DNA of 64,000 bases from the NCBI RefSeq assembly GCF_008831285.2, contig NC_045138.2, forward strand, positions 17,145,934 to 17,209,933, given 5' to 3'. Of this stretch, positions 5,031 through 43,563 are shown one piece after another. The stretch comes from Nymphaea colorata (Eukaryota > Streptophyta > Magnoliopsida > Nymphaeales > Nymphaeaceae). The first letter of the stretch is position 1; each line of letters starts with the position of its first letter. The notes under the pieces were generated by a model that saw only the letters and a list, made by a program, of their open reading frames with translations, ran no database searches and was not told where the DNA came from. The translations under genes were made by a program, and so were the position numbers.

Positions 5031-6410
5031 CTAACATTGTTGTCTCGATCCTCTCTCAAATACATAAACTCAAGACAATCAACCTTTGTGAATGAATGAT
5101 TACCTACAGGAGATCTCATGAAATAAGTTAATTGTGCCATTATATCGTGAGATATTGTGAAAAAAACTTAATTTTCTCCAATTCAATTTTTAATTTTGTA
5201 AATCCTTTACTATAACATTGTTTACTTGATGGAAAAGAGCAGATCAGATGATGGGGCTGGAAAGATTTGTGTGGAGTTTCAAAGATTTGTACTTCACGGC
5301 CTACTCCAAGACCACCTTTTGGTTTGCCCTTCCTTGTTGGAGAGTATTTCATTTGGTTACATAGCAAATTATGTACCTTAGTACTAAACTCATTAACTTC
5401 TTTTAATTTGAATGTCTTTGCATAATTCAACTAGCCAAGGCAAACAAAATATTTGTGCCTTAAAATGACCTACAAATATCTTATTTTACATCAATATCTA
5501 AGGTTGAGTAAGATGAAACTAAATAATGTAATATGAGATTTAGCTAACAAAATTGCAAAATTTTTATAGATATCTGCATTCACTTATCCTTTACAAGTAG
5601 TTTTGAAAAAGTTATAGAGAATCAACAACATTCAAAGGAATTTGGCTTTCATCAAACACAAAAAAGGAAGTGACAATTCTATGTGAAGAACAAGTAATCG
5701 ACATGCTAATAAGCTGAACTTCTAGCATAGTGCACCCATATCAACTTGTTATTCAAATTCAATGATTCTCACGAACAAAAAAACATCAGAATTAATCTTA
5801 GCTCTTGTTAAAGAGAACTAAGATCAATAACCATAAGGAAAGATATCAAAATCAAGCATATGAAGTCTTCCCTTTGAAAGAAAACCAATCTTCATGATGA
5901 TCAAACTATCACACCAAAACATGTGTCACCTCTATCACCTTCAAACACAAACTAATCAATCAAAACCCAACCACATTCCCAAATTTTCACATCATAGTCA
6001 CTGAAAAACTAATCTTACATCATCCAAGATCAACAAAACTGATTGAAAAGCCAAATTTATGGACTAGAAGGATCAAAATATCTACTACTCTCCAAAAGAT
6101 GGAGTTCCAGACCAATGTCACTTCCATCCCTTTTATCTCCCCAATCCTTGATCCAAACCAAGCGATCAAGCACTCATTGGAAAGCTAAGGTCCTAACCTA
6201 AATACCCAAAAAGGTATCAAGCCAAATGACAAAGATAAGCCCAAGTTAGACCTAAGTAAAGTGAGTTGAGAAACACACCCAACCCACCCCCAACAATGGA
6301 CCCTAAAGCCACCCCCCACAAGTGGACCATTATGGGCCGTCGATAATTCCGAATCCGATGGCCCACATTCAAAATTTTCAAGGGCAGAGATCCGGGTGAA
6401 ATATCTCTGG

Positions 6411-6584
6411 ACCAATCAGAATGCTCCTTTTCGTTGCCGTTCCTCTCCCCGTCGTGATATAAAATCCCTACCGTCGTCATCGTGCTCCGCCATCCGCGAT
6501 TCCATCCTCCTCATTCTCCTGTTACTTATCTGCGCCTGCTCTCGGATTTCCTGCTTCAGTTTCCGGCAACGTTTCTCTCTGAAA
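6411..6584 (+). promoter_or_regulatory. Histone H1 promoter and 5' leader
   Basis: A CCAAT box sits at 6412-6416 (accaatcag) and a TATA box at about 6456-6465 (gatataaaat). On the complementary strand around 6492-6500 is CGCGGATg, a 7-of-8 match to the plant histone octamer CGCGGATC, though it lies downstream of the TATA box. Transcription probably begins near 6490, giving a leader of roughly 95 nt. Confidence 0.55.
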
Positions 6585-7942
6585 ATGGCTCCCGCAGAAG
6601 GCACCGACGTCGCGGCTCCGGCTGCTGATACCGCTCCCGCACAAGCAGCGGAGAAATCCAAGGTTAAGAAGGCGAAGAAGCCCGCCGCTGCCAAGGAGGC
6701 CAAACCGAAGAAGGCTTCGGCTTCTAAGGGCTCCAAAGCCCCCCTGTCTCACCCCTCCTACTATGAGGTAGATCTCAATCTTCAGTTTCGTGTAAGTTCA
6801 TTGTATGTAGTTTGTCGTTTGACTGTGGGTGGTTTTATTTCGGTGTTGTACTGCTTTGGGATATTTTCCCGTTTTGGTTTAGTTGATTTTGTTTGCGTTT
6901 GTGGTAGCCTCTTGAGATGCCACTCTCTTGTTTTGAGTTCATTTTCTCTGGTTTTCTATTTCATTTTAGGGTTCTTCTTTGTACCCTTTTCTCTTATTAA
7001 GTCATCTTACTTAAACTTATGGTTTTGCGTTACAAGTATTAAAAGTTTGTTGAGTTTCGGTTTTGTCCGATTGATGAACCGTTACGGGGACTGTTTTGTT
7101 ATAGTCTCTGCAATCATTTGCGGAATTTGATCCACTTGCACGATCTCCATTAACTATCCGAGACACCCATTTTCGGTTTTCATTCAGTTTCTTCATTTTC
7201 TATTGCTAAGGTCTTTGCTGCGAATCATGTCTTCGGATGACTTTTGGTTTTTGTTCATACCCGTCTCTGGTTTCCAGAGTTCATTTTCTTTGGTTATTTG
7301 ATCTTCACTACGAGTTACATTAGATTCTCATTTTTTTTTGTTGACGATCATTGTTTGGACTATTTGAACGCACAGATGGTCGTAGAAGCGATCAATGCTA
7401 GGAAGGATAGAAAGGGAACAAGCCAGTACGCGATTGCCAAGTTCATGGAAGACAAAAGGAAGGACCAACTGCCCTCGAACTTCCGCAAGTTACTTCTTGT
7501 TCAATTGAGGAAGCTCGTCTCTCAAGGCAAGCTGGCGAAGATTAAGAACTCCTTCAAGGTGCCCGCCGCAGAGAAGCCCGCGAAGCCTGTCGCCCCTTCG
7601 AAGAAGCCTGCCGTTGCAGCGAAGCCGAAGGCCCCAAAGGCTGCAGCAAAGCCTAAACCAAAGGCTGTTGGAGCAGTAAAATCAAAGCCAAAGGCTTCCG
7701 GTGCTGCGAAGCCCAAACCAAAGGCTGCCACCGTGAAGAAACCGGCAGGTGCAGTGGCCAAGAAACCCGCTGCTAAAGTGGCCAAGACGTCTGCCAAGTC
7801 CTCTCCTGGAGCAAAAAAGCCAGTCAAGAAGACCATGGCGAAGAAGCCGTCGGCGGCGAAAGTTGTGAAGGCAAAGAAGCCGAAAAGTTTGAAGGCAGCA
7901 AAGCCGAAGAAGGTGACGGCGGCTAAGAAGGGGGCCAAGTGA
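6585..7942 (+). CDS. Linker histone H1
   Basis: Linker histone that binds nucleosome entry/exit DNA and compacts chromatin in the nucleus. The exons are 6585-6767 and 7376-7942. The single 608-nt phase-0 intron (GTAGAT...CACAG) joins to a 249-residue protein. Residues 1-53 form an Ala/Lys/Pro-rich tail. Residues about 54-122 are the winged-helix H1/H5 globular domain, starting SHPSYYE, then YAIAKFMEDK, LPSNFRKLLL, and ending GKLAKIKNSFK. Residues 123-249 are a very basic Lys/Ala/Pro tail with repeated AKPKPKA units. The intron falls at the start of the globular domain, between Glu61 and Met62. Length and layout fit plant H1. The start is the first ATG in the leader consistent with a normal N-terminus; the frame is open further upstream but in 5'-UTR-like sequence. 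Open frames on the opposite strand of exon 2 are composition shadows. Confidence 0.95.
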
Positions 7943-10512: not shown

Positions 10513-12436
10513 GATGATCTAACGACTTGCAGACAGATTTCAACTTTCAAGGGGTTGGCCTGTTCGCTTCTCCTTACACTAACTCTGGACAATGGTAAGG
10601 GAAAGATATGGAACAGTCCAGAGGTCAATTGGGATCCTCTGCCAGGTCATGTAATCAGAGTTTAATACTCTAATTTTGCTTTAATAAAGGTCGGGGGTCT
10701 AACACCATGCGCATGCACCGAAGAAGGGTCTGAGGTATTTTTGAAATTTTTTATAAAATATTTTAGGCTTCAAAATTTTTTACAATTCTTTTTTATCATT
10801 CTAAAAGGTTTCTTTTTTATCAGAACAGAGTTATTTTGGTCATTATACACTCCCGTGCACAATTTTAGTCATGCATAAAATTGTGCACATAACCAGCTTC
10901 ACCGGAAAAGCACTTTCCATTTTCATCCAACAATTGGTGTCGTAGTGGCCTCTCTTTGAGGTGGTGGAATGAACAACTAGTTCTAAAAAAAACAGGAATT
11001 TTGCTAAACAATGTTGTTAGGATCAGCCGGAATCAACCAATTCTACTAAATATGGCAAATAGATTGGGTGCCATGCATGAGGTTTCAATTATTTTGAAGA
11101 CATCTTAAAAAGTTTTTGTACTTTAATTATTTTCTAAAATATTTTGAAGATATCTTAAAAAGTTTTGCACTTTAACTCTTTTCAAAAATTGATTTTTTTA
11201 ACATTTTTGTGATTCACTAAGATCTAACTGGTTTCTGTTGTGGTTTCATCATTGTAATCCTTCACCTTCCATCCCAAAGATTATTGTTGAAATCTGAATT
11301 TGAAAGATAGCAAAATAGATAATTGCAAGTACTTCAGCAAATTTCAAATTAGATCTTTTATTAGGGGTCATTTGGCAGTTGGAACACTTTGTGAGTGATC
11401 CATGAATCTACCCCAAAGATTGGACAAATTCATCAAACACTAAAATATAAGTGCCCATGAATCTGTCTTAATCTTTGAGGCAAATTCATTCAACACAGAT
11501 AAAATAGTGCACGTTTTGTAAGCTGCGATCTAGGCTACAAAAACGATAAGTTGATATATTTCACGCCCTCGTGGTTTGAATAGGCACCTATCTTTTGCAC
11601 TAGAGAAATCAGAATATAAATGGAATCAAAATAGTACTAGTATCCTAGTTATAGAAGGATTTTCATTCTAGCTACCAATCCATATCCAAATTAATGAGGC
11701 AATAAACCAACAAAAAGAAAAAAAGTAAGGATTAGTTAGTACATATATGTACTTGCTTAATTTGGAGCGATTTCCTTGAGATGGTATTGCATCTATAATG
11801 TCTAAATTGGGCCAATTTCTCCACTATAAATCTAATAGCCTAACCCTTCTCTACACAACACCTCTTCCTCTTTTTGCTTTTATGATATGAATAAGCTTTC
11901 TTTAGCATTTTTTAGGTGAGGTATTTCTCTGTGTTCCATTCTTTCCTTTGTTTTCCTTTCAATGATATCCAGGACAGTTAAAATCATTGCTTTCTGTATG
12001 CATCTCCAGTACTTTTTTTCCCTACCCTATGAAATGTTCAACCCTGTACATACAAAGCATTCAAATTATGCAATTTGCAAGATAAAACATGATATGACAT
12101 GAATATTTTCATTCCCCAGGGCCCATGGTTTGAATTAACAAAATTTCGCCATATTGCCGTCTTTTTACTGAAAGAACAATGTCTTTTATCAATTAAAAAA
12201 AGAGCAGTTTTTTGTGCAAAATTGTAGTTTTTGAGAATATTTTACTATTCAAGCAGGCCATAGACATTTTCCTTATGATATGAATAGAGAAGAAATCAAC
12301 CCCTCCTGTAAGTCTGACGAAGGCTGTACATGTCAGGACGTCGTCTTGAAGTCCAAATATGCATGAAGATACCCTGGTCTAAAATATAGGTACAAAATAT
12401 AAAAATTATTACACAAGCTTAGATTATCTAGATAAA
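10513..12436. other. Intergenic spacer
   Basis: No coding exon was recognised. A diverged repeat carrying the catgaatctaccccaaag phrase lies at about 11364-11510. Near 11823 there is a promoter-like arrangement: ctataaatct followed about 30 nt later by a C/A-rich, T/C-rich stretch. It might drive transcription into the inverted repeat at 12437. That is inference only. Confidence 0.4.
11364..11510. repeat. Diverged member of the palindromic MITE family
   Basis: Contains catttggcagttggaacac at its left side and the internal phrases gtgatccatgaatctacccc and atctttgaggcaaattcatt, shared with copies at 4819 and 41374. The right end is not clearly defined. Confidence 0.5.
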
Positions 12437-15171: not shown

Positions 15172-16820
15172 TCACTCTTGGCACTGTAGTTCAGGTGGAC
15201 TCCTGTGGTAATGGAGTTCATAACGCAGAAAATCATGGCCTTCAATCTCGATGATGGAATTCAAGAGATGAAGTTGGTTGTCTTTTCTGGTTGGGGAGGC
15301 AACCACATCTCTCCAGATTTGCCTTGCGTTGAGGCACGAGTCTTCAACCTTGTAGAGGTCCTCTACTGAGTCTGCATCCTCATTCAGCGTTGAAACTCTT
15401 CTGAGCCATTCATAGTCATTGGGATCAATTTGCATGTTGGTAGCTCCCTCTTTCTTCCATCCGATCAACTGCAATCAAGGATCATAGATTTTAGCACAAA
15501 CAGAAAGTCCAGCAGGTGCAGGTTGCGTTCATGATGTTAAAAACCAAATCTCATAACTCATTCAATCAGGTGCAGGATGTTCATTTCAAAATGAGCAAAC
15601 TAGAGCAATTCATAACTAATCAAAACATATTTGCCATTTCCACTAACAGCAGGTGTCTGCGACTGTGTCTGCTGGAAACCATTGATTGAATCTTCATCAT
15701 AGCAAATGACCCTTTGAATCAGACCGCACAGTGAGGATCCACCTTAGGGTTTGTACAACATCCTCTATTTTGCGGGAGGAGTTGTTCTGTACGGAACTCA
15801 CATATCCAAGAACTCATTTCCACTTGCAACAGCAAGTAATCCATCACCACATAGAATGCTGAAAAGGTAAATTGGTAAGAAGGCATATACGGAGGATATT
15901 GAAAAGGTTAACTACCTTAGGTGGGCCTGCAATTGCATTGGTGGAATAGAGCTTGGCTTCATCCACCAAGTCACAGTACTTGTGTAAGCCACTAGCAAAC
16001 ATCTTGTGAGATCTGAGCTGTGACTTCACCCTCACTCCTCTACCCATTACTATGGCTCGCCTGCACGTACCGCAACTTCGATTAGCAGACTGCATAATCT
16101 TATACGAAATGAATATGCTACTTTCCCTTCATGTATGCCTTCTCGCTGGGAAGGAAATTGCATTTGAGTATTCTTGTAACAACGTAAGTTACTTAATTGC
16201 AAAACACAATTAGAATTTGAACAAGCCACGAATGTAATATACACACAGAAAACAGAGCATGAGAGCACATTTGGCATGTTGGTACTGCCAAAAGCATCTC
16301 AATTTGAAGGATTTCTTGTCAAAAGATTTTTCAAAACAAGAAGTTTACATATATATATGTACCTGATGCCACGGACAACGGCTAGGTGAGCATCGCAAAC
16401 AACGCCAACAAACTCGATCTTGTAAGGCTTCCTGTTGTTCATACAAGTCCTAGTGGATTCATCTTCCTCAACTTCCTCCCAGTAGTTTTCAGTAACAGAT
16501 CCATCATCAAGAACCTTATATCCGACCCCCATACGGTACCGTCGCCGATGCACGTTCCTGGCCATGGCGATCGTCTGTACCACGTACGGTTCCCACGACA
16601 AGGTCCCGTCCATGATCACGTCGCGCCCCTCATTCAATGCCGTTACCAGCAGTGATGAAGCTGCATGCGTTGATGATTGATGCACCTGCTTTGCGTTAAC
16701 ATATCGATCTAAGTAAGAATAGGAACACTGGATTCTGCACCGAGGTAACTTATGATATGATTCATTGTGAAAAGAAAGTTCAAATTCCACAGAATGTGCA
16801 TGGCAGGTTCTTGACATCTT

Positions 16821-16897
<77 letters not shown>

Positions 16898-16903
16898 TGG
16901 CAC

Positions 16904-16945
<42 letters not shown>

Positions 16946-19900
16946 ACCAGCTCTGATGTATCAATCATGTCAGGGTGGCCTATAGAGCGAAGGGCTCTAA
17001 AGATGACGTCCGTCTCCTTGAAGGCGTCTGCTTCGACTACAACCTTATTGGCTGTCTCTGCCCAGAACCCACTGTAAGAACGATGCATGTGTCAGCCCAT
17101 TTAAGACCCACAGACCACCAGTTTTAATTTTCGTTTTTAATTAACGAGAGAAGCCTCCTCCACTATCAGGTTGAAGAGGACAATGTCATAAAACTAGAAC
17201 ACTTAATCAAGTTGACACATTTCTGGGTTGTTTGGTAGCTAGAAGATTTATGTGGATGAGCATTTCATATACTTGTCTTAGTATTAGAGAAATTTATCGA
17301 ACATTAGTTTTAACATTTTATCAATCTATTCAAATTAGTAGATTCATAAAGCACTCCTTAGTTAAATGATCTTGAATCCCAAAATTTCTGTGGGGGATAA
17401 AGGTTTATGACAAAGAAGAAAAAGATGGGATTTGGTGGGGGTTCTTACTCGTTGAGTATATTCTTGAGGACGGTGCTCTTGCCTGCACCCATGCCGCCGC
17501 CCATGAGGAGGAGGACGGGCCTCCGCTCACTTGCTTTCTCAGAAGACACTGTCTCAGTGACCGGCGAGGTGCGGGACTCTTTGCCCATGGCCTTGAACTC
17601 GTCCACCAGGGTCGAGAAAACTCGAGTCACCTTCAGGTCCTTGGTCAGCCTCTCGATCCTCTGAGTCCTGCACAAATTACCCACTGTTATTCCACCTCAA
17701 TCACATCAAAATTAGAGCGCCAGTGAGCGCTTGGGGTCGACCATGAAAGTGAATTATGTGCACCAACAAAAATGCACTAGCAAGAAAGAAAGGTGAAATT
17801 GGTAACAAGAAACATTGTCTTTTTGGTATCAAACGGTGCATATAAGCAACTTGGTCTACCGCCAAGACGTGATTGTAAGAGGGACATTCCCATCTTTTTG
17901 AAAACATTGTCTTTTAGTATCAAACGGTGCTGCTGCCAACACGTCGTTGTGTGAAGGGGCATCCTCATCTTTTTGAAACTCAGGTCATATTTGGTTCGTT
18001 TAGCGGTATTTTAGTTATTGTAGCACTACGCCATGAGTGGATCGCCGGAAACAGCCGCTGCAACAGGTTGTTCTGTGGCGGCTACAGCCGAAACTAGTAA
18101 CCTTTCTCATCGAATTTGAGTGCTTTATCATGCTCCGATCTCCACCAAAATTGGATAAGTTGTAGAGGAGGACGAGAGAGCACGGTCTCTCTCCCATTTG
18201 AAAGGAAGGTTTGTCGTAGTGAGGTGGGCCGTGACCGTCGGGAAGCAGTTTGAACTTTGACGGCCATCGTTGGCTTTCTTTCTTACGGCTTTATAGTCTA
18301 CATTGGCGGAAGACGCGCTACGAAACTTAGTCAAGTCAACTAGGTGGACTGGCCGCCACCGGCCGAGCTAATCAGAAAACTCGGTTGACTCGACTGGACC
18401 AACTTGGTCGAATCGAGCCAAACTCGACCCGAATTTGTCCCCCAACTTTCCACTTTTTGTTAATGTCAAACCGAGGCAAATCGAACCAGGAGTCGACTCG
18501 GTGAGTTCCAACGATGCTCACAAAAACAGTCGGGGTCTCCACTTCCCTTGGTTGTTATCGTGCTTCAGTGTGTTATTTTTTTCAAAAGCAAATGGTGGCA
18601 GACGCCACTCTTAAGCTGAAGAGCACAACTACATGTTTACTGAGATTTTCAAGCAGCTTTGAACCTCTGCAACGAAAAAGAAGGAGTTTCGTCTTCTCAC
18701 TCTAGCAGTAAAGTTCTTTCAGGCTCAGCTGAAATGGTTTTTGGATGAAAAGGAAAAGAAAATGGAGAAGAACCTCTTTGTCCTCGATTGATCCGTTATA
18801 AGCGTTTGGATGACAAACTTTGTGGATTTTATTTATGTTGGCAGAAGGAGACAAGTGAAGGCCCAACTAAAACAATGGCATGAAGCCGCAAGACTCACCT
18901 GGTAGCTGCCATCACCATGTTTCTGAGCTTGCTTTTCGGTGGAGACTCCATGCGCAAAGCCTTCAAAAGAGAGTAAACAAGACTTCATCCCCACTGGTTT
19001 TTAGAGAAGTGAAGGGAAAAATGGAGAGTGAAGGGAACTAACCGCAGTAACGAGGAATGAAGAATGGTTCCAATGAAAGGCGAAGTAGCTAAGAGCGCAC
19101 GCCTCAAGCTCACCGATCAGCTTCTCGCAAAGAGCCTTTCCGTCAAATTCATCAGCAAAATAATCACGTATTTCTTCCTTCCAACCCTCTGTGGCTCTCA
19201 AGTAGTCGCCAACCAACTTGCAGAAAACGGGATGATTCTCTGCACCTGTGATGCCCAATTGCCGAGCTGCAAGAAGGTTCTCAGAGGTCAGTCTTAGAAA
19301 ATCAAGGATTATAACCAAATTATTATCAAATTTTGGGTAAACGAGAGGATTATAATCAGATTCCTTGGCCTTAAATACATGCATAATGAACATATAATGC
19401 ATCTATTTTTCTCTGTTGCTAGGTATTTCAAAGTAAAACTAAACAATCTTTATTTTTAGATTGATTGAAACTATTAATCAATGATCATGGATGAAAAGGA
19501 CTATTAGGTGGAAAGAATTAATCATTCAACTAAACATGCAAAATGTATTTTTGCAATGTTTACTTTGGTCCTGTGCTCCACTTGAAGTTTTTTAGTGCGA
19601 CCACCTAACAAGCTGCATAAAGCTATTCACTTGCTTCTCCTTTGTGCAGAGTAAAATTTTAAAAAAGAAAAAGCATACAAATTGATTAAGAGAAAAGGTT
19701 TAGAACAGGGTGCAGAATCACATGGTGACTGGTGTACAAGCCTCACAAAATTAGTTTAATACATATGTAAATGTTTTGATATATGTGATTGTTATATATA
19801 TAAGTGTCCCAAAAAAAATTAAGAGTATTGAATGAGTACCTCCATAAAAAAAAACTTTCTGGCTCTTTTAATGTGGCACCATAAACTTTAAAAATTTCAG

Positions 19901-20367
19901 ATAAGGGAGAAGAAAATTTCTCAACCAACGAAGATGAGAACGACCTTTAAATGGCCCAAAAAGCTATAAACTCTCAACTTTAAGACACAATCAGGAAAGA
20001 CTTTTACACATACGATCACTAATGGGTTTTAGAAGTGACTGGTTCTGTAACATGGTACAAACAGTTCGGGCATGATTCACAGTGTTGAAAAACAAATATA
20101 ATTAGTTTGACATAATTTTAATAATTCAGAAAGCTGATGAAAAATTCAAAAGCTGCAACTTCCGGCGAGCGGGAACGCAGGAGGCATAAAGAGATTTTGG
20201 TGACACTGAATTTTTCTTTTTCCTGAAAATTAGATGTGACTGAGAGATAGAGAAAGCAGAGAGCAGGGAGATTGTGGATTACCAACATAGTGAGGAAAGG
20301 TTTCGAGCTTCTGAATCCGGCCGTCGTGGCTAAAGACCGTGACAGGGACAAGCTTCTCCACCCCCAT
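15172..20367 (-). CDS. Zeta-toxin-fold P-loop kinase family protein, paralogue A
   Basis: Plant member of the zeta-toxin-like P-loop NTPase family. Bacterial relatives phosphorylate UDP-N-acetylglucosamine; the plant substrate is unknown to me. Eight exons join in frame: 20367-20283, 19266-19043, 18960-18899, 17667-17449, 17071-16948, 16685-16363, 16060-15916, 15468-15172. The intron phases are 1,0,2,2,0,2,0 and the product is 492 residues. The N-terminal part begins MGVEKLVPV and has FSHDGRIQKLE and HYVARQLG. Walker A is GGGMGAGKST at residues 180-189 (Lys187). A downstream EADAFKETD (Asp212) matches the zeta D-x-F region, followed by RDVIMDGTLSW (about 259-269) and VVCDAHLAVVRGIR. No signal peptide is evident. 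Intron 5 holds long TA and GA microsatellites. The start is the first ATG of exon 1 and aligns with paralogue B. No antitoxin partner is present, so a toxin role is not implied. Confidence 0.88.
16824..16943. repeat. (TA)n and (GA)n microsatellites beside a splice donor
   Basis: About 34 TA dinucleotides (16824-16892) are followed by a GA tract (16906-16943). Both lie in intron 5 of paralogue A. In the sense direction the donor reads CTG|gtaac and then runs directly into CTCTCT, so the repeat begins within a few bases of the exon. Confidence 0.95.
17220..17365. repeat. Diverged MITE copy in intron 4 of paralogue A
   Basis: Begins ttctgggttgtttggtagct, comparable to the GTTGTTTGGCA terminus at 4819. 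Its interior holds tagattcataaagcactcct, a degenerate form of the family's attcatgaaacact phrase. It is old, with no clear duplication at the ends. Confidence 0.45.
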
Positions 20368-21236
20368 CGTCGACCTCTTCCTTCCTCCTTCAAAGATTAT
20401 CCTGAGTTCCGTCGCAGAGAGAAAAGGAAGGTGGGGAGAGAGAGATGATCAGCAACTGCTCAACGATCGATGCCCCCCTTCTTAATTTTGTGACCTGAAC
20501 ATTTAAAGGAAGGGAGAACCGCGTCCCGTGAACGATGACATTCTTTTTCCTCTTTCTCTCTGACGGCGCCGCCTATCATGAGGGGCAGGGTGGGCCAGTT
20601 CAAACTGGCTCGCTTTAGCCGAGCAGATTTCAAGTTTGTGAAGTCAAGGATTGGATTAGATTAGATATATTCGGTATATTCTGCTTTTTCGAATTTGAAG
20701 GAAAATTTCACTTTAAACAAAAAGAAGTCATATTTAAATCTAAATATAAAATTTCATTTTATGATTCAAATCTAATTTTATATTTATATTTAAATCCAAA
20801 TCTGAATTTTAAACCGGATTTTACTAATTTTTAAAATGTAATATCACTATATGCAAGATATTTGTTTAAAATTGAATATGCTCTGAATTTATATCCGAAT
20901 TCAATCAAATATTTATGTATGTCTAATACGATTGGCTATTATTTATTAAATTTGAATCTGATTTGATTTTTTAATTAGATATTAATTTTTTTTTATATCT
21001 TATTTTTTTGAATCGGTTCATCCAATATCAAATTTAAATCAGATGTATTGACATTCCTAACTTTATCTTTATCTGAGAACCTATAAGCTTGAGCTTAGCC
21101 GAGAGATGGGAATACATTCTTTTTCGAGATATGATGTAAGTGTTTGCACAAACCTAAAAGGAAGGAAAATTTAAAAATACAAAACAAAAAAGAAGAAGAG
21201 GAAAAATAAAAACGTGAAAAAGAAAATAGAGACTAA

Positions 21237-25749: not shown

Positions 25750-25912
25750 TGTAAGTCTAACCCATTTGACAAATAGAATAGTTACAAACTGTTCAAAAAT
25801 TAGGGCAGATTCATGAATCACTTTTTAAGGTATTTCATAAATCTGCCCAAACCTTTAGACCATACTTATAAAACAGTTACATACTATTCCGTTTACTAAA
25901 CGAACCCTAAGC
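25750..25912. repeat. MITE with about 40-bp imperfect inverted termini
   Basis: The left side (ctaacccatttgacaaatag, then aatagttacaaactgtt) pairs imperfectly with the right side (aaaacagttacatactattc, then gtttactaaacgaaccctaa). The middle contains gcagattcatgaatcact and its inverse, a palindrome shared with the family at 41374. Confidence 0.65.
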
Positions 25913-27080: not shown

Positions 27081-30000
27081 TCATGTGAATTCAGCCTTGG
27101 TAATGGCATTCAAGAGTTGAAGTTGGTTCTCTTTTCTGGATGGAAAATCAATCACATCTTTCCACACCTCGCTTGCCTTACTGCAATGGTTTGCGTTACT
27201 GTACAAATCTTCCACTGATTTTGCATTCATGTTCAGCATCGACACCTTATTAAGCCAATCATAGTCTGAATCAACTGGCTGGATGGTTGCTCCCTCTTCC
27301 TTCTTTCCAATCAACTGAAACCATGCCATTGAAAACCTTGCATTAGAAAAAGTACAGAATGCACATAGATTAACAGATTTCTATATGAACAGTCTAATGA
27401 AGTATAATGAACGTCTTTTAAGCTTCCAATGATATCAAGTTATCGGAAGTTTCTTGGTCGTCAATTTCTTAATCTATCCTTGCTTGCCATCACTGTATTT
27501 TATTATCTGAATTTGGGTGCTGTCTTTGTATGTGATGTTGATGTCTTAGCTAGCATTCGAACAGTTATGAAGGACATGGTTTCTTGTTTCTGGAAGCTTA
27601 CCTTAGCAGGACCTCCCACAGCATTTGTGGAGAAGAGCATGGCTTCATCTACCAGCTTACAGTACTTAGGGAAGCCAGTGGCGAACATCTTGTGAGATCT
27701 CAGTTGGGAGCTTACCCTCACTGCTCTCCCCATGATAATGGCCCTCCTGAAACCAAAACTTTGATCAGAAAACCTATACAATATAATGCATATATGTAGA
27801 CAGGGAGACATATACAAACGCATACATATATACATACACATTTCTGCACGGACCGTAACTTATGGAAATGAATAACCTGGTTGTGTGGCATAATAATAAT
27901 ACATCTTCAATGCATTATATATATTTCATATACTATGTCTTATTCTCTTACCTTTTCCAGAGTTGAAAACAAAAGTAGGATCAGGATCGGATTCTGATTG
28001 TAAAGTTAAAAGCAGATTTTGATATCATATAAACTTTTTTGTTGTTCATATTTGAATCCTAATCTCAATTCGAAAGTATGAAAATTCAATAATTGGTATA
28101 CAATATCCAATTCGAATCGAATGCAACCTTTTCAACGTCCCTATCCATGCATGGAAGGAACATCAGAAACCATCTCCTCCTTCGAGAAGCGTTCTGTTTT
28201 ATGTCCTTGGGAACACACATCAAACACCCTCGATGGATCTCAAGTAGTTGAAGTACCTGATCCCGCGGACGACCGCAAGGTGAGCATCACAAACAACACC
28301 CACAAGCTCAATCTTGTAGGGATGCCTTTCCTTCACTCCCTTCTCGCTTGGGACGTCGTCTTCTTCAGCTTCCTCCCAGTAACTCTCTGTCACAGAGCCA
28401 TCATCTGCAACCTTGTACCCGACTCCCATCCTGTAGCGCTTCCGGTGGACGTTCCGAACCATCTCAATCGTCTGCCGCACGAACGGCTCCCACGACAAGG
28501 TCCCGTCCATGATCACGTCCCGCCCTTCGTTCAGTGCGGTCACCAGCAGCGATGAAGCCGCATCGGTCGATGACTGGTGCACCTGATTTTACCAAATGCA
28601 TCGAAGAATTCAAATCAGTATTCATGCACGGCAAAATTTCATCTCCTCTTCACATTTGATTCGCGTACATCATATCTGTTTTGTTTCCCTTTTTCTTATT
28701 CTTTTATGCAGCAATACGTGGTCTTCTGTTCTGTTCTGTTTTCCTGCTCAGCATTTCTTCCTCTCTCTCTTTCTTTTTTTCCTTTTTTTTTTTTTAATTT
28801 TATTTTATGGCAGGTCAGCTTTTCTCACTTTTATTCGTCAAATTAAAACTCTCTTTTACTTGATATTCGGTATTTCCTTTTTCGATAATTAATAACATAA
28901 TTTTTCATTGAGTAGGGAGGTCCTAAGTCTCTTTGCTTTAATGCCGATGCACTCATTAGATTAACTATAATTTTACATTCATGAGGAGAGGCCCTCAATT
29001 TATTTGCTTTAATGTCGATGAACTCATTAAATTAACTATAAGGAATCAAATATCAATATATGAACTTTTGATTTTAATTTCTTAAAACATGCAATATAAA
29101 TGTAATGGCAAGTTGTATTTATTGGATTAACTACAATAAATCAAAAAATGACTTAAATCTTAATTATATTGATACTTGTGATTTTAATCTCTTAAATCAT
29201 TCAATATAAATGTAACAACAAGTTAAATCCAACCTAAATACATTGTGTTTGTGCGAAAGTTTCGACCAATTATGCTATAAGCCAGTTGACAAGGGAGAGA
29301 AAGGGGGAGAGAAATACCAACTCGGCCGTGTGGATAATATCATCGTGTCCTCTAGCACTAAGGGCTCGAAAAAGAACGTCTGTCTCCTTGAATGCATCCG
29401 CCTCAACCACCACTGCCTCCTTCGCCGCCTCTGCCCAATAACCCCTGCATTTCAGCCCACCCATTCAGTCCTATTAGCTCCTCATCAAGACCCACCCACC
29501 CACATGGGTCCGAGCCATCTGGAACCCACTTTGCCTAAATACCCACAAGAAAAGTAGAAGAGGACCGTAACGGTCCGGTTTAGGTCAAGTTCAGTTTGCC
29601 CGGCTCATACTTTCTCATGATCTTCTTCAGCACCGTGCTCTTGCCTGCACCCATGCCACCACCCATGAAAAGGAGGACCGGTCTCGGGTCTTTGGTCTTT
29701 GCGGTGACCGTCTCGACGGCACGTGGCAAGTCCCGCTTCGTTCTGATTGCATTGATCTCGTCAACCAACGTCGAGAAAACCCTAGTCACCTTGAGGTTCT
29801 TGGTCACCTTGTCGATCCTTTGTTTCCTGTGGGCATCAACGGGCTCAGTGCAGGTCAAGTGAGTCTAAGTTGGTCCGCACCCGGTTAAGTTAGATTACAA
29901 AACTCACCTAGTAGCTGACATTACCATGCTTTTGAGCTTGCTCTTTTTCAGCTTACCGACGCTTAAAGCCTTCATAAAAGAAGCAAACAAGCACAATAAT

Positions 30001-30367
30001 GAGCTAACTTTAGAGAGAGAAAAGGCCAGTAAATTCATTGTTAACCTCGTTAATGAAGGACGATGCGTGGCTCCAATGGAAGGCCAAGTAGCTAAGGATG
30101 CATGACTCGAGCTCATTAGTGAACAGCTCATGGAGTGCCGTTGGGTCATTTTGATTCTCGAAAAAATCGTAGATTTCTTCCGGGCTACCCTTTGGATCTC
30201 TTAGGTAGTCATCAGCTAATTTGCAGAAGTTTGGGTATCGCTCTGCATCTTTGATGCCCAAGTGCCTAGCTGCATTTTCCAAAAACAATCTCCTCATATG
30301 TCTTATACTAAATGAGGGAAGATAGCTTTAATTAATTATCCTTATAAATACTCTAATTTAAATAATT

Positions 30368-30398
<31 letters not shown>

Positions 30399-31781
30399 TA
30401 AAGTTATTTAGATAAGATTTATTGATACATAGTATTGCATCGGGCAGTGTGTTCAATCACATCCTAAGCATGTTATGATTGGATGGAGAGCTCGGAGGAT
30501 TTGAGTTCATATAAATATATATATAAGTTGGTAAACAACTTGGATAAGGAACAAAGACCAAACCCATTAAAATTATTATTAAAGTATTTTTTTTGGCAAC
30601 CTAAGAGATACAATTACTTTAAGCGCGATTCGTCAAGAAACATAGTTTAAGTTATCATTTTTTAATTTAATAACGTTTTCTGAATAATTGAAAAAATGAA
30701 TGGTTTTTATAGTATTAACATTTTTTATAGTAGAAAGATAAACTTTTTTTCATAAAAATAATATGAATTAAAGCACGATTTGTATTAAATTAATGTTTAT
30801 AAACGCATAAAAATTCATTTAAAACAATTTTTAACACAAATTTAAGAGATTCGGATTTTACCGGTTTTTACCAAAATATGTATATAGCGGGAACCCCTTT
30901 CTGTGAAAATTTTCATTATTTGCTTTGCTGTTGTCGTTCGCTTTTCTATAATTCAATACGGATGATGGATGTGACCCCTCACATTTAGTTGGTTCCAATG
31001 GGTTTCTTTTTATATAAAGATAATTTTCTGTCGGTGGTTTTTTGCTGAGAAACAAAAATATATGCGTGGCATTTAACATGATCTGGGGCCGCCCATGGAA
31101 AGGTTTGGCCAATATCATTTTCCAAGACATAGAGTTTACCGTCCTTTTATGATGAATTTAACTATGCAAACATACTCATAAGATTGTTTAATAAGCTTAT
31201 GTCATAAAATTCATTGAACACGTTAAAGCTAAGATTGTTTGACCCATTGTTTCATGATCTTTGGTGAATGAGAAGCAAATGACTATATCTAGAGAGAAAG
31301 AGAGGTTTGACCCATTGTTTCATGATCCTTGGTGAATGAGAAGCAAATGACTATATCTAGAGAGAAAGAGAGAGCCGATAAAATGAGAATGTATATCAAA
31401 CTTTAAAGACAAGAAATCTTCCGAAACAAACCCCAAAATAGAAGCAATAGGAAAAGATTATGTTTGTAGGAGTGCGTTGGAAAGGAAAACAAGTAAAGAA
31501 GAAATTTTTTTTTATGGAGCTTTCTTTGCAGCTTTTTATATATGAAAGGGCATTTACATACATAACAACAGACATATTTAAAGATATTAATTTGAAAATG
31601 AAGATGTCAATTTGAAAATGAAGAAACCTTGAAAGGAAAGGTTGAGGGAAAGGAAGATGTAGCAGTGAACGTTACCAACGTAGTGAGAGAAGCGTTCAAT
31701 CTTCTGGAGGCGACCATCGTCGCCGAAGACCAGGAAAGGGACGAGCTCCCGCTCGCTCCCTCTCGTCAGCTCGCGCTCCAT
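27081..31781 (-). CDS. Zeta-toxin-fold P-loop kinase family protein, paralogue B
   Basis: Second copy of the family, downstream in the plus direction and in the same orientation as paralogue A. Exons: 31781-31676, 30269-30046, 29969-29908, 29826-29611, 29444-29318, 28582-28257, 27746-27602, 27314-27081. They join in frame with the same phases as A (1,0,2,2,0,2,0) and encode 479 residues. Exons 2, 3 and 7 are identical in length in the two genes (224, 62 and 145 nt). Walker A is GGGMGAGKST at residues 186-195 (Lys193), followed by EADAFKETD and RDVIMDGTLSW, so catalytic motifs are kept. The N-terminus is longer (MERELTRGSERELVPF) and the C-terminus shorter (ends ITKAEFT) than in A. The frame is open upstream of the chosen ATG, but alignment with A favours this start. 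Both copies look intact; any division of labour between them is unknown. Confidence 0.88.
31238..31373. repeat. Near-perfect 68-bp tandem duplication in intron 1 of paralogue B
   Basis: Two adjacent units begin tttgacccattgtttcatga and end gagagaaagagag. They differ by about one base (gatctttgg versus gatccttgg), so the duplication is recent. Confidence 0.9.
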
Positions 31782-36766: not shown

Positions 36767-38265
36767 TCTTATGAAGAGTGTTTATTCAGATAAAACTCTT
36801 TGGTAATGATCACCATGAATGACATACAATTGCCTCCATCAAACTTAGTATGGTGAGCACTTTTTAAGATTTGTCTAACTTGAATCAATGACTTTTAGTA
36901 TCAAGAACCATTCAATACGATTGCAATGACCATCAAATTTCATAAGCACTTTGAACGATTTGTCCGACCTGAATGAATCATCAGTCATTCACTCACTCGA
37001 TGAGCTCTAAAATCAAGTTGAATTTGTTAAAGTTGGATTCAGCCATAACCTGAACTGTTTAAATATTCATAATCATAGTCCACAACTTAACATATGCACA
37101 ATTATTGCAACTTCAACTTATAGGTGCAATTAATTCAACTTCAACTTATGGCCCATGAACTAGCTCCCATGAGCAAATGAAAACGAGATCCAAGGTTCTT
37201 TTCGTCACACATTATTATATCTCGACTCTTCGTGTCAAATTATGTAAGTATTGTCACCTCCACACAATTAAACAAAATGCAAAAAATAAGGGAAATTTTT
37301 AAAAGCACGCTTAAGAATTGGCAGTAATGAAAAACATTACTAAATTTTTCTTATTTTTTAAAGGAAATTTAAATTTTTCTATGGTTAGTCAAAGAGATAT
37401 TGCTTAGCGCATTTAAACTTTTGTTCAATGGCTACTAAAACCATCATGTAATCATGTATTAATATTAATGAAATTATAATTTATTTTCACTAGAAGTATT
37501 TTGGTTTTTTATCAGCTTTTCCTAAGCTTAAATTAATAATAACCTACCATTAGTAGGCAGATTATCATTTTTTACTAATGGTGTAAACTTAGGCGACTTG
37601 TTGCGGGCTCCTCCTGAAAATTTACAAAAAGATAATTGTAGCAAAGTTAAATAAAATCCTTGACGCATTTGTTTTGAAACTTTAGTTTTTTGCTCCAAAA
37701 AATTCTGGCATATATGTTAATGTTAGTGTAAATATGTCAAATAAATTAACCAAACCACTAATTTTCACTGCCAATATTATTACAAACATATAAACAAATG
37801 GCTTTCATAATACATTAATCCCTTCAGAATCCTATCCGATGCATAATATCACCAGAAACATGCTGAAATTTGTGAACTATGATTGTATTTCTCTTTTTGC
37901 TTTCGAGTTCCAAAGGGTTAGGCACACCCCTCTTGTTCATTCCGAAATAAGGTGATTTGTGTAAAGCGATCAGGCATACATCAGAAAACACTGAATCACC
38001 CAACATACCCAAGAAATCCGCAACTCCTATTCTAGTTTCTTAATTAGAAGGAAAGAAAAAGATCACCATGTTCATGACCATGGTTATTTACACCCCAATA
38101 ATCCAACCTTTACCCAACACCAACTTTACCTTGTTCAACAGATAGATAATATGAAAAAGAAGAAGGAAAAATAACATGAGAACTTTGGCTAAATTTTCTT
38201 TCTGTCGCTGTCTAATTGCCTAATGATATGAACAACAGAACAAACTCCTGGGTATATTGGCAGGA

Positions 38266-38416
38266 AGCAGAAGGAAAGAGTAACGAGAAAACTATTGGTA
38301 TGAGTGGAATAGGAAAGACATAACATTTACAATATGGAGTAAAAAGCGTCTTCCCTATTCCACCTAACCTGAGTCTTCCAGAGACTCCTTCCCTCTTCTC
38401 ACTGCCCTTTCTCCAT
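38266..38416 (+). ncRNA. MIR482/MIR2118-like hairpin 1
   Basis: Candidate microRNA precursor. The 5' arm at 38297-38318 (ggtatgagtggaataggaaa...) pairs with the 3' arm at 38349-38370 (tcttccctattccacctaac...) across a loop of about 30 nt, with one small bulge in the 22-nt duplex. The lower stem continues through ggaaagagt on the left and the tcttctcactgcccttt region on the right. The 22-nt 3' arm begins UCUUCCCUAUUCCACC, the miR482 pattern I recall, which targets the NBS-LRR P-loop codons and triggers phased siRNAs. It is the best-formed of the four hairpins beside hairpin 4. Expression cannot be judged here. Confidence 0.72.
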
Positions 38417-38462
38417 TGCTGCTGCTTGCGTTCTGCTGCTACTGTTGTAACAACAAGCAAAA

Positions 38463-38616
38463 GAAGCACAAGGAAAGAGTGAAAGAAAAACCATGGCATG
38501 GGTGGTATGGGGAAGCCAAGAGCTCAGTTGTCTGCCAAAAGCATTAATGGCCTCCCCGACACAACCCAGCCTCCGTTTTTCTGAGCACTCCCTCCCTCTG
38601 CCCTTTTGTCGCTTCC
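38463..38616 (+). ncRNA. MIR482/MIR2118-like hairpin 2, diverged
   Basis: The 5' arm 38495-38516 (ggcatgggtggtatggggaa...) pairs with 38551-38572 (cctccccgacacaacccagc...) across about 34 nt, with one bulge and a few mismatches. The flanking lower stem (aggaaagagtgaaagaaaaa on the left; gagcactccctccctctgcc on the right) matches that of hairpin 1, so the two are duplicates. The candidate mature 3' strand has drifted from the family consensus, so this copy may be non-functional or have altered targets. Confidence 0.55.
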
Positions 38617-38639
38617 TCTTCAACTCTCTCCACCAAAGC

Positions 38640-39000
38640 TCCTAACCAGAAGAAGGGGTTAGATTACAAGCCAAGCGAGTAAAAGGCCATGGATGGCAGG
38701 ACAGTGGTTTTGTAAAACTGCTTTAGTTGCCCATGGTTTCAAAGGGCAGCTTCCTCCCGCTGTCCCTCTTTTCAATTCTTTAATGGGGATGCTCCTGCAT
38801 GGAAGAACTGGTTTTAATGCGGGTGTTGACTCCGTGCTCGACAATAATGCAAGCTCTGGTGGCCCACTGGTCACGGCCATCGAGGCAGCCGAGAAGCTGC
38901 CGGGTGGCGGGTGGGTATCCCATTTGAGAAACTCGGAAAACTTATTGAAGTGCTCGTGAATTGCTGGATATTTCCGAAGGACTACGCCCAACAATAGTTG
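38640..39000. other. GC-richer patch with opposed open frames, unidentified
   Basis: Frames of 88 residues (38693-38959, plus) and 111 residues (38659-38994, minus) overlap on opposite strands in sequence less AT-rich than its surroundings. Neither shows a domain I recognise, and there is no convincing splice context or leader. It could be a relic of a captured gene or transposon piece beside hairpin 2. Confidence 0.3.
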
Positions 39001-41216
39001 GGCACCCTACCATACTGTGGACACGTTTGCTTCCTGCAAATTCAGATAAGGATTTACTCATCTGTCAACAATTGATGGGAGGGACGGCGGTCTGTGGGTC
39101 TGTATCTGACGCCTCCTAGTTTGACAGCGGAAAAGGCGGAATCTGATTAGATGGTATCTGTTTTTAATTGATTTCTAGATATTGTTTTTTAAAATTTCAG
39201 ACTAATTCGCTGGCTTGGTTGGACTTGGCTAAAAGTGTTAAATAGTTAGTTTCAGAAATAATAAAGGAAAAGTAAGTAATTAAGTAATATGTAAAAAAAT
39301 GTTTAACGAAGTTTAGACTATACATGGCCTCCTTGAATCAAACACCGAATCAACCATCAATTCTGGACTTATAATAACATTGAGTTAGGCTATATATATG
39401 ATTTGTAAAGATTACATGGCACCTGAGAAATGGAAAAAGCAGCTAAAGAATGGTTATAAAAGAACGACCGTTAGGGCTATGGGCTAAATAAAGTCAGGGG
39501 CATGGACTATGGGCAAATGTGTTTTCAAAGTCAGTAATCCTGTTGTGGAAGCAGTGAGCCTAGATTCCAATGAAATTTTTATAGCATTTTGAACTTTGTT
39601 GGTGGCTGCCATTTTTTAGAAAACTTTATAAAATTAGTTGTAAATGAAGGTTATTGCTGTAATTAACCATCATATTCGCATTTCTAGCTCTTTTGAGAGT
39701 TAACACAAAAAGGTAGGTTGAAGACTGAGCTAGCGGCTCATTGAGGGGGCATTTGATTGCCCTTGTTCTAACATCCTCACGATTTGAGAATAATGGATTT
39801 AAGATCAAAACTCTACTTTCTCCTATCTTATCAACTTGATGTTTCTTGTATAGTTTTTCACACTTACTAGTATGATTAACGGACAAGAGATGAGAGATTA
39901 GTTCCTCATACTATCAATTTGTTCTCTTCGCTTTCCGGACATGAACATTTTGATGCTGCAAACTGATAGAGATTACCTTAACCTCAGCTTTGTTTATCAT
40001 TGGATTAAAATGCGTCTGTTGTCAAACATAAACTGCGACAAGTGTCTACATGTGAATTAACCACAGCTTAATTTTTTTGCAGGCTTAGAATTGTGTGTTT
40101 GATTGGAAAGAGCTTCATTGGTTACCAGGGAGCCTTGCCTATCTACCAATTCTATAAATGCTTAACTTGATCGTGAAAACCAACGGAGCTAAATCAAGTT
40201 ACCCATTATGTCGTTGTTTTATGTTTGGTACACATCTCAATCAATAATTTTCTTGCCCAGTGATTCTTGGGTAATGGATGTGATGGAAACTAGTAGGCAG
40301 CTGCCCAAACGCTCTCTTGTTTGGCGGTAGGATAAAATACTCTACTAGATGCACAGTATGAACCAAAAACGTACTTATACAGAACAATCAAACTGACCTA
40401 GCTGGAATAAGCTCACAACGCCTGAATGTGGGCTTGGCCAGTCTAACTCAGCGCAAGGCTCTCATTACCGCGCAGACCATGCTTCTAAGTCCCATTAACC
40501 GGGTTTTTAAACCTTTGTATGGAATAAGTTTAACCTATGTGACTCAAAACTCAAAATTTCAAGACCTGTGAAGATGAAGTAGGATGTAACCAAAGTTGAA
40601 GAAGGGAAATAGTTACCAAAGTTTGATTATCTTACAATGTCTTTTCTTATCCCTTTTTATCTGTTTCTTCATCACTTATGGTGTGTTTTGGCTGCCACAA
40701 ATGTCATTTTTCAATTTCAGAAAGATACGGAGAGAGTGGGGGTTAAAGACCCTTCAATCAAAATCTGTTTGCTTCTTGGCTCACATTTCCTATTTTTGAT
40801 ATGTACATGGCGGAAATTTATCCTCAAGCACCAATCTTCTGTTTTCATTTCCACGCAGAAGATAACTAAGAGCCAGCCTTTGCTCAAACATGGTGCAAAA
40901 TCAACTGATCTTTAATAAAAAAATAAAAATAAAAATAAAAATTAAGCAGCCTGCTATTTTCTTATACTCAGCAAATCTTCGTTGAAATCCATGTCTAAAT
41001 GGCTTTTAGGAGCCGTGGAAATCCATTGAGCAGTCCTATATCACCCTTCTCAGTTGGTCCAAAAGTGATCAATTTCCAAAGGATCAGTCATGTTATGTCA
41101 CAAGTTGAAGAAGATGAAGTTACGAGAAAACATCTTTCTAAGTAACAATACTATGCATAAATAAGCCATATTTGAATTAAGGAACATACCTTTGCAGCAT
41201 CAGGGTTCCTCCATCT
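39001..41216. other. Intergenic DNA within the hairpin cluster
   Basis: AT-rich, without recognisable exons. I looked for further ggatgggtgg...ttcccnatnccacc pairs and found none between hairpins 2 and 3. The frames at 40596-40915 (plus) appear non-coding. Confidence 0.45.
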
Positions 41217-41655
41217 TGGCAAGGAGTAGAAGGAAAGAATTATGAGAAAAGTTAGGAATGGGTGGCATTGGGAGGGTTCACGACCCAACTTCCACGAAGG
41301 CAAATCAGGTTTAGTGAGCAACCTTTCTAAAATAAAGCACTACCAGAGATCACACCGTTTTTTGTAACAAAAACACTGCATTAGTGTTTCATAAATCTGT
41401 CCCAAAAATTGAGGCAGATTCATGAAACACTGAATTCCAGTGTTCCATGAATCTACCCCAATCTTTGAGGCAGATTCATGAAACACTAATGTAGTGTTCA
41501 TGATATGAAATGCGTTGTATAGTTTCTAACAGTCCTTCATTTGAAAGAGATCACTCACCAAATTACCTTATTTTCCTTTGAGTATTTTGAGTGGAAGAGC
41601 ATCTTCCCAGTGCCACACACCCTGGATTTTCCAATGACTCTTTCCCCCTGCCACA
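41217..41655 (+). ncRNA. MIR482/MIR2118-like hairpin 3, loop expanded by a MITE
   Basis: The 5' arm 41255-41276 (ggaatgggtggcattgggag...) is the closest of the four to the classical miR482 star strand. Its partner lies at 41602-41623 (tcttcccagtgccacacacc...). The loop is about 325 nt instead of 15-35, and contains the palindromic MITE at 41374-41497. Lower-stem sequences (agaaggaaagaatt on the left; aatgactctttccccctgcc on the right) match hairpins 1 and 2. Such a long self-folding loop would probably disturb processing, so this copy is likely a decayed locus. Confidence 0.55.
41374..41497. repeat. Palindromic MITE inside hairpin 3
   Basis: The left half (cactgcattagtgtttcata...) is the near-exact reverse complement of the right half (...gaaacactaatgtagtg), around a centre near aattc. 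Each half itself contains the inverted pair attcatgaaacact/agtgtttcataaat. It shares phrases with copies at 4819, 11364 and 25750. Confidence 0.8.
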
Positions 41656-41712
41656 TGCCTAATAACATATCAAAAAGGTTAAGGAGCCAAGAAGCACGAA
41701 CCATGGCTAAAG

Positions 41713-41820
41713 AAAGAAGGAAAGATTGATTGGAAGACTACGGAATTGGTGGATTTGGGAAAACAAGATTTGTGTTGTCTTTTCCAATCCAACCAAACGC
41801 TACTTTTCCAGTCTCTCTTT
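41713..41820 (+). ncRNA. MIR482/MIR2118-like hairpin 4
   Basis: A compact hairpin. The 5' arm 41742-41763 (ggaattggtggatttgggaa...) pairs with 41778-41799 (tcttttccaatccaaccaaa...) across about 14 nt. The lower stem is also well paired (gaaagattgattggaagact on the left against agtctctctttc on the right). The 3' arm reads TTTTCCAATCCAACC, close to the miR2118 pattern UUUCCGAUUCCACCC as I recall it. On fold quality it is one of the two best candidates for a working gene. Confidence 0.68.
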
Positions 41821-43563
41821 CATTCCCAGTTTGCACATGTAACTGGGCAAAGTCATCAGGTAGAGGAAAAAAAAAAAAACACAGGGAAAGTAAAGAGGAT
41901 GAAATTGAAGGAGCCTCCTGGAGGAAGCCATTGCCATTGTTGATCTCATCTGGTACCCATCTGCAAGCATGAGCCTCACATTTATCAGCAGAAGAAAACA
42001 GCTCATCACAGCCCATTGGTTTACCAATACCGCTAACTTGGCAGGTGTCGGATTCAATTCTTCTAGTTTACAGCAGTAAAAAGGTGAAAGAAAGCATCAA
42101 TAATTGAATGTTACTGCTCATTGGGATGCTATACTTGACTTTGACTAAGCATCGGCGATGGTGGCCTCACATCACAATGCGTTAATTTAGTTGATATAAA
42201 GCGCTGGCATACCCAGAAGGGGCATTGAGATTCGGTCTCAGAATGGAACTTTGGTGCAATCCCCAGTTAGTTTGGATAAGGGATGCCAATGGCGTGGATA
42301 TAAGAAAAAATTACATATCGATGTAGTAAAAATGGTAGAAGGCTTTTGGAAAGGAATACGATGGGTGCCTCAAATGGCTTACAGTGGTAGTTGGGAGAAG
42401 GTACTGTGGAACGTTGAGTCTTCGTTTCAATTCTCGTGACTCGTGGGTGTTAGGTTCTCGGGCCATGTGGAATGGGTTCCGGTACCTACCTGATGTGAAA
42501 ATGCATCAGTATCATGTCTAATGCTGAAAGCAGATCAAAACCAAGAAAGGTTTGGGGTTGCTCTTTTTGTGGCAGTAAGTCGTAACCTCTTGTTCATACA
42601 GAAGGAATATGATAGATATTCATAATTACCAAAATTCCGATGTGATTACATCTTAAACTTTGGATGTGTTTTTCATCAAACTAATCAATATCCAGATACT
42701 CGAACATGGAACTGGTTATCTCTGATTGGAACTCATCTGCTTAGTTTGAACTTCGGATTTACAGTCTTCCAAGCCATATTTAAAAAGGGACTTTATTTTG
42801 AAACTAACGTTCTTTTAACATGATTTTTTTAAATATTTATCATTATCTCAATGAAAAGGGGATATATATATATCAAAACACTAACACGGCCATTGTGAGG
42901 ACATGCATTAAAAGCTGGATTTGATCTTTTGAATGTACTTTCTGTCTCATGTTAGTCGGCTTTGATTACCTTCATGTAGTAATAGAGAACGAGCGCCTTA
43001 CAATTCTCGAACAATGGCCATTTTAAAATGGACCAGTAAAACATATTAAGCTCCATTTTGTACTTAGATTGCCATGGTTAAACAGGTAACTCATCTTCAG
43101 AAATTTCCCAGCACCAACACAACTTTTGCAAATAATTGTCAAAAAAGAAGTGTCAGGTTGCACCTTCAAAATGACTAGCTCTCAACTTATGGAAGTTGGG
43201 ACCTCGGAGACTGGAGAGATGCTTCAGCTTGTAAGCAAATTGCGAGAAAAGTTATCTCAACTATAGCTAAAGCAAATGGTTTGCATTCAACTATAGATCA
43301 ATTATATACATATTGAGATTAATACTCAAAGACAAAGCAATTTCAGCAGGAAAATTTAACTTCCAGAACAAAATTCATTACATCAGGGAAATAACCTTTG
43401 ACAGAGTAGCCCATGGTTCTAGGTTAAACTCTTCACGCCCATCAATATATATCCCATAATTAGAAGCGACACAAAACTGTCCTAAATCCAAGCAAAAGCT
43501 ATGAAATAGACCTTCGTCACAATCGATAAAGTCCAACGAAGAGACAACATAATTTTGTTCTTA
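41821..43563. other. Spacer between hairpin cluster and prefoldin gene
   Basis: No coding exon was recognised. It contains short runs of poly(A) (41868) and a TA run at about 42862. The portion from about 43350 is the presumed 3' UTR of the prefoldin gene on the minus strand. Confidence 0.45.

Follow-up and report, generated by a model that had tools for sequence, protein, structure and literature searches.

Between positions 38255 and 41840 of a 64,000-nucleotide (nt) stretch of the Nymphaea colorata genome (contig NC_045138.2, positions 17,145,934 to 17,209,933; the whole stretch is termed the window, and positions are counted from its first letter) lie four inverted pairs that fold back into hairpins, all in one orientation and here termed hp1 to hp4 (Table 1). 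A preliminary description of this DNA, made from the letters alone, had listed these four same-strand pairs as a cluster of the MIR482/MIR2118 microRNA (miRNA) family read from the plus strand. All four pairs were found, and they carry a 46-nt direct-repeat family with copies at 38269, 38468, 41228 and 41715, the three copies other than the reference being 63, 70 and 76% identical to it. Our reading, to which we give a probability of roughly 0.8, is that they form a tandem MIR482/2118 cluster of the water lily, encoded on the minus strand and read as hp4, hp3, hp2, hp1.

The usual mature strand of miR482/2118 is the 3′ arm of the precursor. The search motif TTCCNNNNCCNCCCATNCC fits the minus 3′ arm in 4/4 copies (with 1, 1, 1 and 2 mismatches in hp1 to hp4), whilst at up to three mismatches it fits the plus 3′ arm in 0/4, and the plus strand that the preliminary description had taken as the coding strand is thus most likely the wrong one. 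Translation of the complements of the minus 3′ arms gives GMSGIGKT (hp1), GMGGMGKP (hp2), GMGGIGRV (hp3) and GIGGFGKT (hp4), which can be read as the P-loop of the nucleotide-binding leucine-rich repeat proteins (NBS-LRR or NLR). Both the P-loop link and the presence of a different candidate mature strand in each copy, as first described, are borne out. Searched in all six reading frames of the window, the expression G-x-[GSPA]-G-x-G-[KR] matches four times, each time in one of these arms. When the six fixed positions of the P-loop were scored opposite each candidate, the minus 3p arms of hp1 to hp4 gave 5, 5, 4 and 6 (20/24 in sum) and the plus 3p arms 5, 2, 3 and 3 (13/24); random 41-nt plus-strand segments of the window, those overlapping the arms included, scored at least 4 in 47 of 20,000 cases. 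The GKT part of the complement is intact in hp1 and hp4, whilst its T is changed in hp2 and both K and T are changed in hp3. The serine at the third P-loop position of the hp1 complement has a precedent among plant NLRs, in that At5g04720 reads GMSGSGKT.

The hairpins are genuine: all four are copies of a single element in tandem, and they exceed what chance provides in a 64-kb window. At up to one mismatch the motif has three matches in the whole window, each within the cluster and on minus, whereas 500 dinucleotide shuffles of the window gave 0.034 on average and never more than 1; at up to two mismatches it has five, four of which are the cluster and lie on one strand (shuffle mean 0.606, maximum 4), and no shuffle placed more than two matches on one strand inside 4 kb. 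At up to three mismatches the excess becomes mild (16 matches against a shuffle mean of 7.85, equalled in 3/100 shuffles). A chance origin is therefore unlikely, given the motif count and the 500 shuffles. A profile built from the minus 3′ arms of all four copies picked up no further copy in the window: ranked next are the opposite arms of three copies (E 0.0004, 0.0007 and 0.075), and after these matches of E at least 2.5.

The same arms raise a different explanation, namely that they are not miRNA genes but remnants of NLR pseudogenes or inverted repeats of another kind. Indeed the plus arms do translate as P-loops, and a review gives pseudogenised NBS-LRR genes as the likely origin of the family (PMC12069490). 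Against this, each P-loop has a stop codon nearby in frame, the likeness among the copies runs on past the P-loop to include the lower stem, and the cluster surpasses the shuffle control. The NLR strings GLPLA, GLPLT, LLVLDD, FLLVLDDV and SRIIITTR were not found in the window, and MHD occurs three times, always at a distance (8807, 10876 and 30098). An origin of the arms as NLR pseudogenes is thus unsupported by the NLR motif scan of the window. Pfam covered 10 of the 45 open reading frames of at least 100 residues, and the exclusion of NLR genes from the window is that of the motif scan only. We regard this as the least probable of the explanations weighed here.

Folding adds to the case for the minus strand in hp1 and hp2. 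The hp1 fold-back reaches −74.8 kcal/mol on minus (z −10.8) and −55.3 kcal/mol on plus (z −6.7), and that of hp2 −83.4 (z −8.4) and −61.6 (z −5.05), respectively, with 0/200 shuffles as low for either hairpin on either strand. G:U pairs number 8 on minus in each, as opposed to 0 on plus in hp1 and 3 in hp2, an excess that would be expected if selection keeps the minus RNA. Scores against the Rfam MIR2118 model (RF01911, gathering score 85 bits) favour minus for the same two hairpins, albeit below the cut-off: 30.2 bits (E 0.005) versus 24.6 (E 0.12) for hp1, and 45.8 bits (E 8e-7) versus 29.8 (E 0.0065) for hp2, which is the top match of the cluster. Between copies, the minus 3′ arm is 62–77% identical over the six pairs and the 5′ arm 46–68%. 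The minus strand is most likely that of the cluster because the folding of hp1 and hp2 is joined by the mature motif in all four copies, and it is assigned to hp3 and hp4 too since these copies share the orientation of the other two.

Single-stem folds had been proposed at the plus-strand arms, and segments picked by hand around those arms were each compared with 200 shuffles. Stable single stems were obtained for hp1 (−44.7 kcal/mol, z −5.1, 0/200 shuffles as low), hp2 (−52.5 kcal/mol, z −2.9, 1/200) and hp4 (−40.2 kcal/mol, z −5.0, 0/200); a longer hp2 segment of 320 nt gave z −2.8, with 1/100 shuffles as low. In hp3 the 3′ arm by itself did not fold beyond chance (z 0.34), and the whole structure folds back over about 450 nt.

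In hp1 the predicted duplex pairs a mature span of 22 nt with a star span of 21 nt, and the same asymmetry (22 versus 21 nt) is predicted for hp4. The loops between mature and star are 30 nt in hp1 and 14 nt in hp4, in agreement with the compact loops first described. The mature sequences that had been proposed, 38349–38370 and 41778–41799 on plus, are not supported: each is, but for its last base, the reverse complement of a predicted star, that of hp1 and that of hp4, respectively. The ranking of hp1 and hp4 as the copies most likely to be active stands, with GKT intact in the complements of their matures. By contrast, hp2 had been described as decayed, yet it has the strongest family score and is therefore not evidently so; its change of T to P would lie either at the first mature base or outside it, according to where the true 5′ end is. 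Three positions of the predicted mature are unpaired in each of hp1, hp2 and hp3, and five in hp4, and the distance from star to mature is 73, 78, 370 and 57 nt in hp1 to hp4, respectively. Annotation criteria for plant miRNAs call for a precursor of no more than 300 nt and a duplex with no more than five mismatches, so that hp3, at 370 nt, exceeds the precursor length and hp4, with five unpaired mature positions, is borderline.

Several points weigh against the minus-strand reading. The motif TTCCNNNNCCNCCCATNCC was picked from knowledge of the family after the arms had been seen, which makes the test partly post hoc, and it presupposes a Met codon, which disfavours the plus arm of hp1. The P-loop expression was likewise widened at two positions after the arms were seen, by admitting S, P or A as third residue and R as seventh; in its strict form, GxGGxGK, it matches two of the four copies, hp2 and hp4. 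No match in the window reaches the Rfam gathering score, the best for MIR2118 being that of hp2 on minus, and the cluster is accordingly not assigned to that curated family. The predicted duplex of hp2 is symmetric, with 21 nt on either side and hence no 22/21 asymmetry. A further set of observations would suit transcription of a MIR482/2118 locus from the plus strand, with the matures at 38349–38370 and 41778–41799. Thus hp4 folds slightly better on plus (−43.5 kcal/mol, z −3.7) than on minus (−37.3 kcal/mol, z −2.8), with 1/200 shuffles as low and three G:U pairs on each strand, and its MIR2118 scores are 21.1 bits on plus (E 0.83) versus 18.1 on minus (E 4.6), neither of them significant; nor is its minus-strand match to MIR408 (18.5 bits, E 0.6). 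The arms of hp3 alone also pair slightly better on plus (−70.8 versus −66.8 kcal/mol). Finally, hp1 is nearly palindromic, and its plus 3p arm is anti-P-loop as well (RLGGIGKT), with an equal score of 5/6. Transcription from plus is nevertheless unlikely, in view of the failure of all four plus 3p arms to match the motif at up to three mismatches, the poor P-loop reading opposite those of hp2, hp3 and hp4 (2, 3 and 3 of 6), and the folding of hp1 and hp2, which is worse on plus by 19–22 kcal/mol. It is also conceivable, though very improbable, that both strands are used, with sense and antisense anti-P-loop miRNAs arising from near-palindromic hairpins; this is suggested because hp1 reads GMSGIGKT and RLGGIGKT on its two sides and hp4 folds at least equally well on plus.

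The largest departure from the common plan is seen in hp3. Its whole fold-back reaches −203.2 kcal/mol on minus and −180.4 on plus, and both arms folded together on the plus strand (466 nt) give z −13.4, much of which comes from an inverted repeat nested in the loop. This repeat resembles a miniature inverted-repeat transposable element (MITE): its 81-nt arms are 80% complementary and 5 nt apart, and it has relatives in the window at 11382–11499, 25793–25875, 4892–4995 and 2971–3019. On the minus strand the repeat also has an Rfam MIR5565 match below threshold (56.2 bits, gathering score 80). The pairing of the hp3 arms on minus, at −66.8 kcal/mol, lies below all 200 shuffled pairs (mean −40.0, lowest −55.5), and G:U pairs account for 6/46 pairs on minus and 5/45 on plus. 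An Rfam MIR2118 match is listed for hp3 on neither strand, and the P-loop lysine codon is altered in its complement. As had been proposed, hp3 is probably impaired or weakened, because the MITE-like repeat lengthens the fold-back beyond 300 nt and the 5′ end of the mature mismatches the GKT codons.

The state of hp3 bears on a further alternative, that the four hairpins are degenerate relics of a MIR482/2118 cluster that formerly functioned on the minus strand and is silent today. The insertion and the altered lysine codon of hp3 fit such decay, as do the five unpaired positions in the hp4 mature and the fact that every MIR2118 score lies under the gathering cut-off. Set against these are the long stems that hp1 and hp2 retain on minus and the greater likeness between copies of the mature arm than of the star arm, and a silent relic is accordingly judged slightly less likely even than transcription from plus.

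Table 1. Features of the hairpin cluster, with positions in the window.
Feature	Position	Strand	Basis and remarks
hp1 precursor fold-back	38255–38407	−	Folding, G:U counts, Rfam MIR2118
hp1 candidate 22-nt mature (3p) TCTTTCCTATTCCACTCATACC	38297–38318	−	One motif mismatch; complement GMSGIGKT
hp1 candidate star (5p)	38349–38369	−	Pairing in minus fold; positions converted from fold indices
hp2 precursor fold-back	38455–38615	−	Folding, G:U counts, Rfam MIR2118
hp2 candidate mature (3p) CTTCCCCATACCACCCATGCCA, ends predicted	38494–38515	−	One motif mismatch; complement GMGGMGKP
hp3 fold-back, about 450 nt	41215–41665	−	Whole-fold energy and arm pairing; strand undecided by folding
hp3 candidate mature (3p) CCTCCCAATGCCACCCATTCCT	41254–41275	−	One motif mismatch; complement GMGGIGRV
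MITE-like nested inverted repeat in hp3 loop	41352–41518		81-nt arms, 80% complementary, 5 nt apart
hp4 fold-back	41705–41840	−	Folding, G:U counts; folding slightly favours plus
hp4 candidate mature (3p) TTTTCCCAAATCCACCAATTCC	41742–41763	−	Two motif mismatches; complement GIGGFGKT; P-loop score 6/6
hp4 candidate star (5p)	41778–41798	−	Pairing in minus fold; positions converted from fold indices

Judged on its sequence features, the assignment to MIR482/MIR2118 holds up: the minus 3′ arms fit the motif, hp1 and hp2 match the Rfam MIR2118 model below its cut-off, and hp1, hp2 and hp4 align across the full model (positions 1–170), all with fewer than 85 bits. Clustering and tandem copies of miR482/2118 are already known from rice, columbine and cotton. 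In cotton, the P-loop GKT codons are described as complementary to the first seven nt of miR482, asymmetric duplexes as the source of its 22-nt forms, and two MIR482 hairpins as lying 164 bp apart (PMC3877274), whilst tandem duplicates of the family are reported in Solanaceae (PMC4700956). The cluster resembles the cotton MIR482 and tomato MIR482/2118 loci, as these sources present them, in its anti-P-loop 3′ arm, tandem copies and copy-specific matures (PMC3877274, PMC4700956); it differs from seed-plant MIR482/2118 in the serine at the third P-loop position of the hp1 complement and in the repeat within the hp3 loop. The 18 members of rice miR2118, clustered on chromosomes 4 and 11, share with it the clustered copies and several mature classes, but the rice miRNAs are described as acting on reproductive long intergenic non-coding RNAs and PHAS loci (sources of phased small RNAs), whereas the putative water-lily targets are NLR mRNAs (PMC7305157). 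Columbine, a plant outside the grasses, likewise has several clustered precursors (nine miR2118/482 precursors, with two polycistronic clusters); these are backed by expression and cleavage data (PMC8368212), whereas the water-lily cluster is described from its sequence. An association with a MITE is common to hp3 and to cotton MIR482/2118D, whose copies were spread by one (Shen et al. 2020, via the review PMC10004981), but in cotton the MITE moved the miRNA gene to new sites, whilst in the water lily one copy has a MITE-like repeat within its loop. Whether written as RNA or as DNA, the 19–21-nt cores of the candidate 3p matures, taken from all four copies on minus and from hp1 and hp4 on plus, were not found in open-licence main texts (supplementary files not covered), and nor were the P-loop octamers of the cluster together with miR482 (at least two of three octamers). 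In PMC9864873, N. colorata is named in connection with SERRATE copies and DCL1 domains.

The steps that may follow from the hairpins are inferred from the known family, along the pathway described in PMC9650292 and PMC3877274. RNA polymerase II would transcribe the hairpins from minus, possibly as a single transcript, DCL1 would cut out the 22-nt 3p miRNAs and these would be loaded into AGO1. The AGO1–miRNA complex would pair with NLR mRNAs at the P-loop codons, leading to cleavage, after which RDR6 and DCL4 would make 21-nt phased small interfering RNAs (phasiRNAs) that spread the silencing. Three of the copies would then each address a P-loop code of its own: GMSGIGK for hp1, GMGGMGK for hp2 and GIGGFGK for hp4. 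A review assigns the family a mainly reproductive role in monocots and one mainly directed at immune genes in dicots (PMC12069490); reproductive phasiRNAs are reported to be triggered by the family in columbine and flax as well (PMC8368212), and NBS-LRR genes to yield phasiRNAs in Amborella (PMC4457045). The targets in water lilies may be NLR mRNAs, reproductive non-coding PHAS transcripts, or both.

Elsewhere in the window, two tandem genes resemble calmodulin/calcium-dependent NAD kinase, at 27084–31781 and 15241–20370, both on the minus strand. The first matches N. colorata P0121, with 109/109 and 35/35 residues identical in two matches and 98.7% of 78 in another; its other four matches are 69–95% identical and may overrun splice sites, and a joined query gave 93% identity to N. 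colorata followed by 74% to Victoria cruziana, so that by its proteins the window belongs to N. colorata or a very near relative. The second copy has diverged, being about 52–79% identical over most matches. A linker histone H1 gene lies at 6270–7942 on plus and has two exons as read, with the Pfam Linker_histone domain in the second; a protein search with this H1, in which 7,992 candidates were scored, had a best match 68% identical across 30% of the query and did not point to the species. TATA-like strings, looked for on minus in 41836–43400 and 38607–40200 only, occur at 42868–42872 and 43308, upstream of hp4 by roughly 1 kb or more, and at 39398 and 39583, 0.8–1 kb upstream of hp2; they were not used as evidence.

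The strand has a practical consequence, in that probes or read searches built on the plus-strand matures first proposed would target the wrong sequence. In the improbable case that both strands are used, a wider set of immune-receptor P-loop codes could be covered by this small cluster of an early-branching angiosperm. The interest of the cluster lies in the corrected strand, in the spread of the P-loop code among its copies and in the water-lily lineage itself: Nymphaeales are part of the ANA grade, which is sister to all other flowering plants (PMC12069490). With four copies defined, a strand proposed and candidate matures named, the ancestral role of the family would be easier to probe in Nymphaea.

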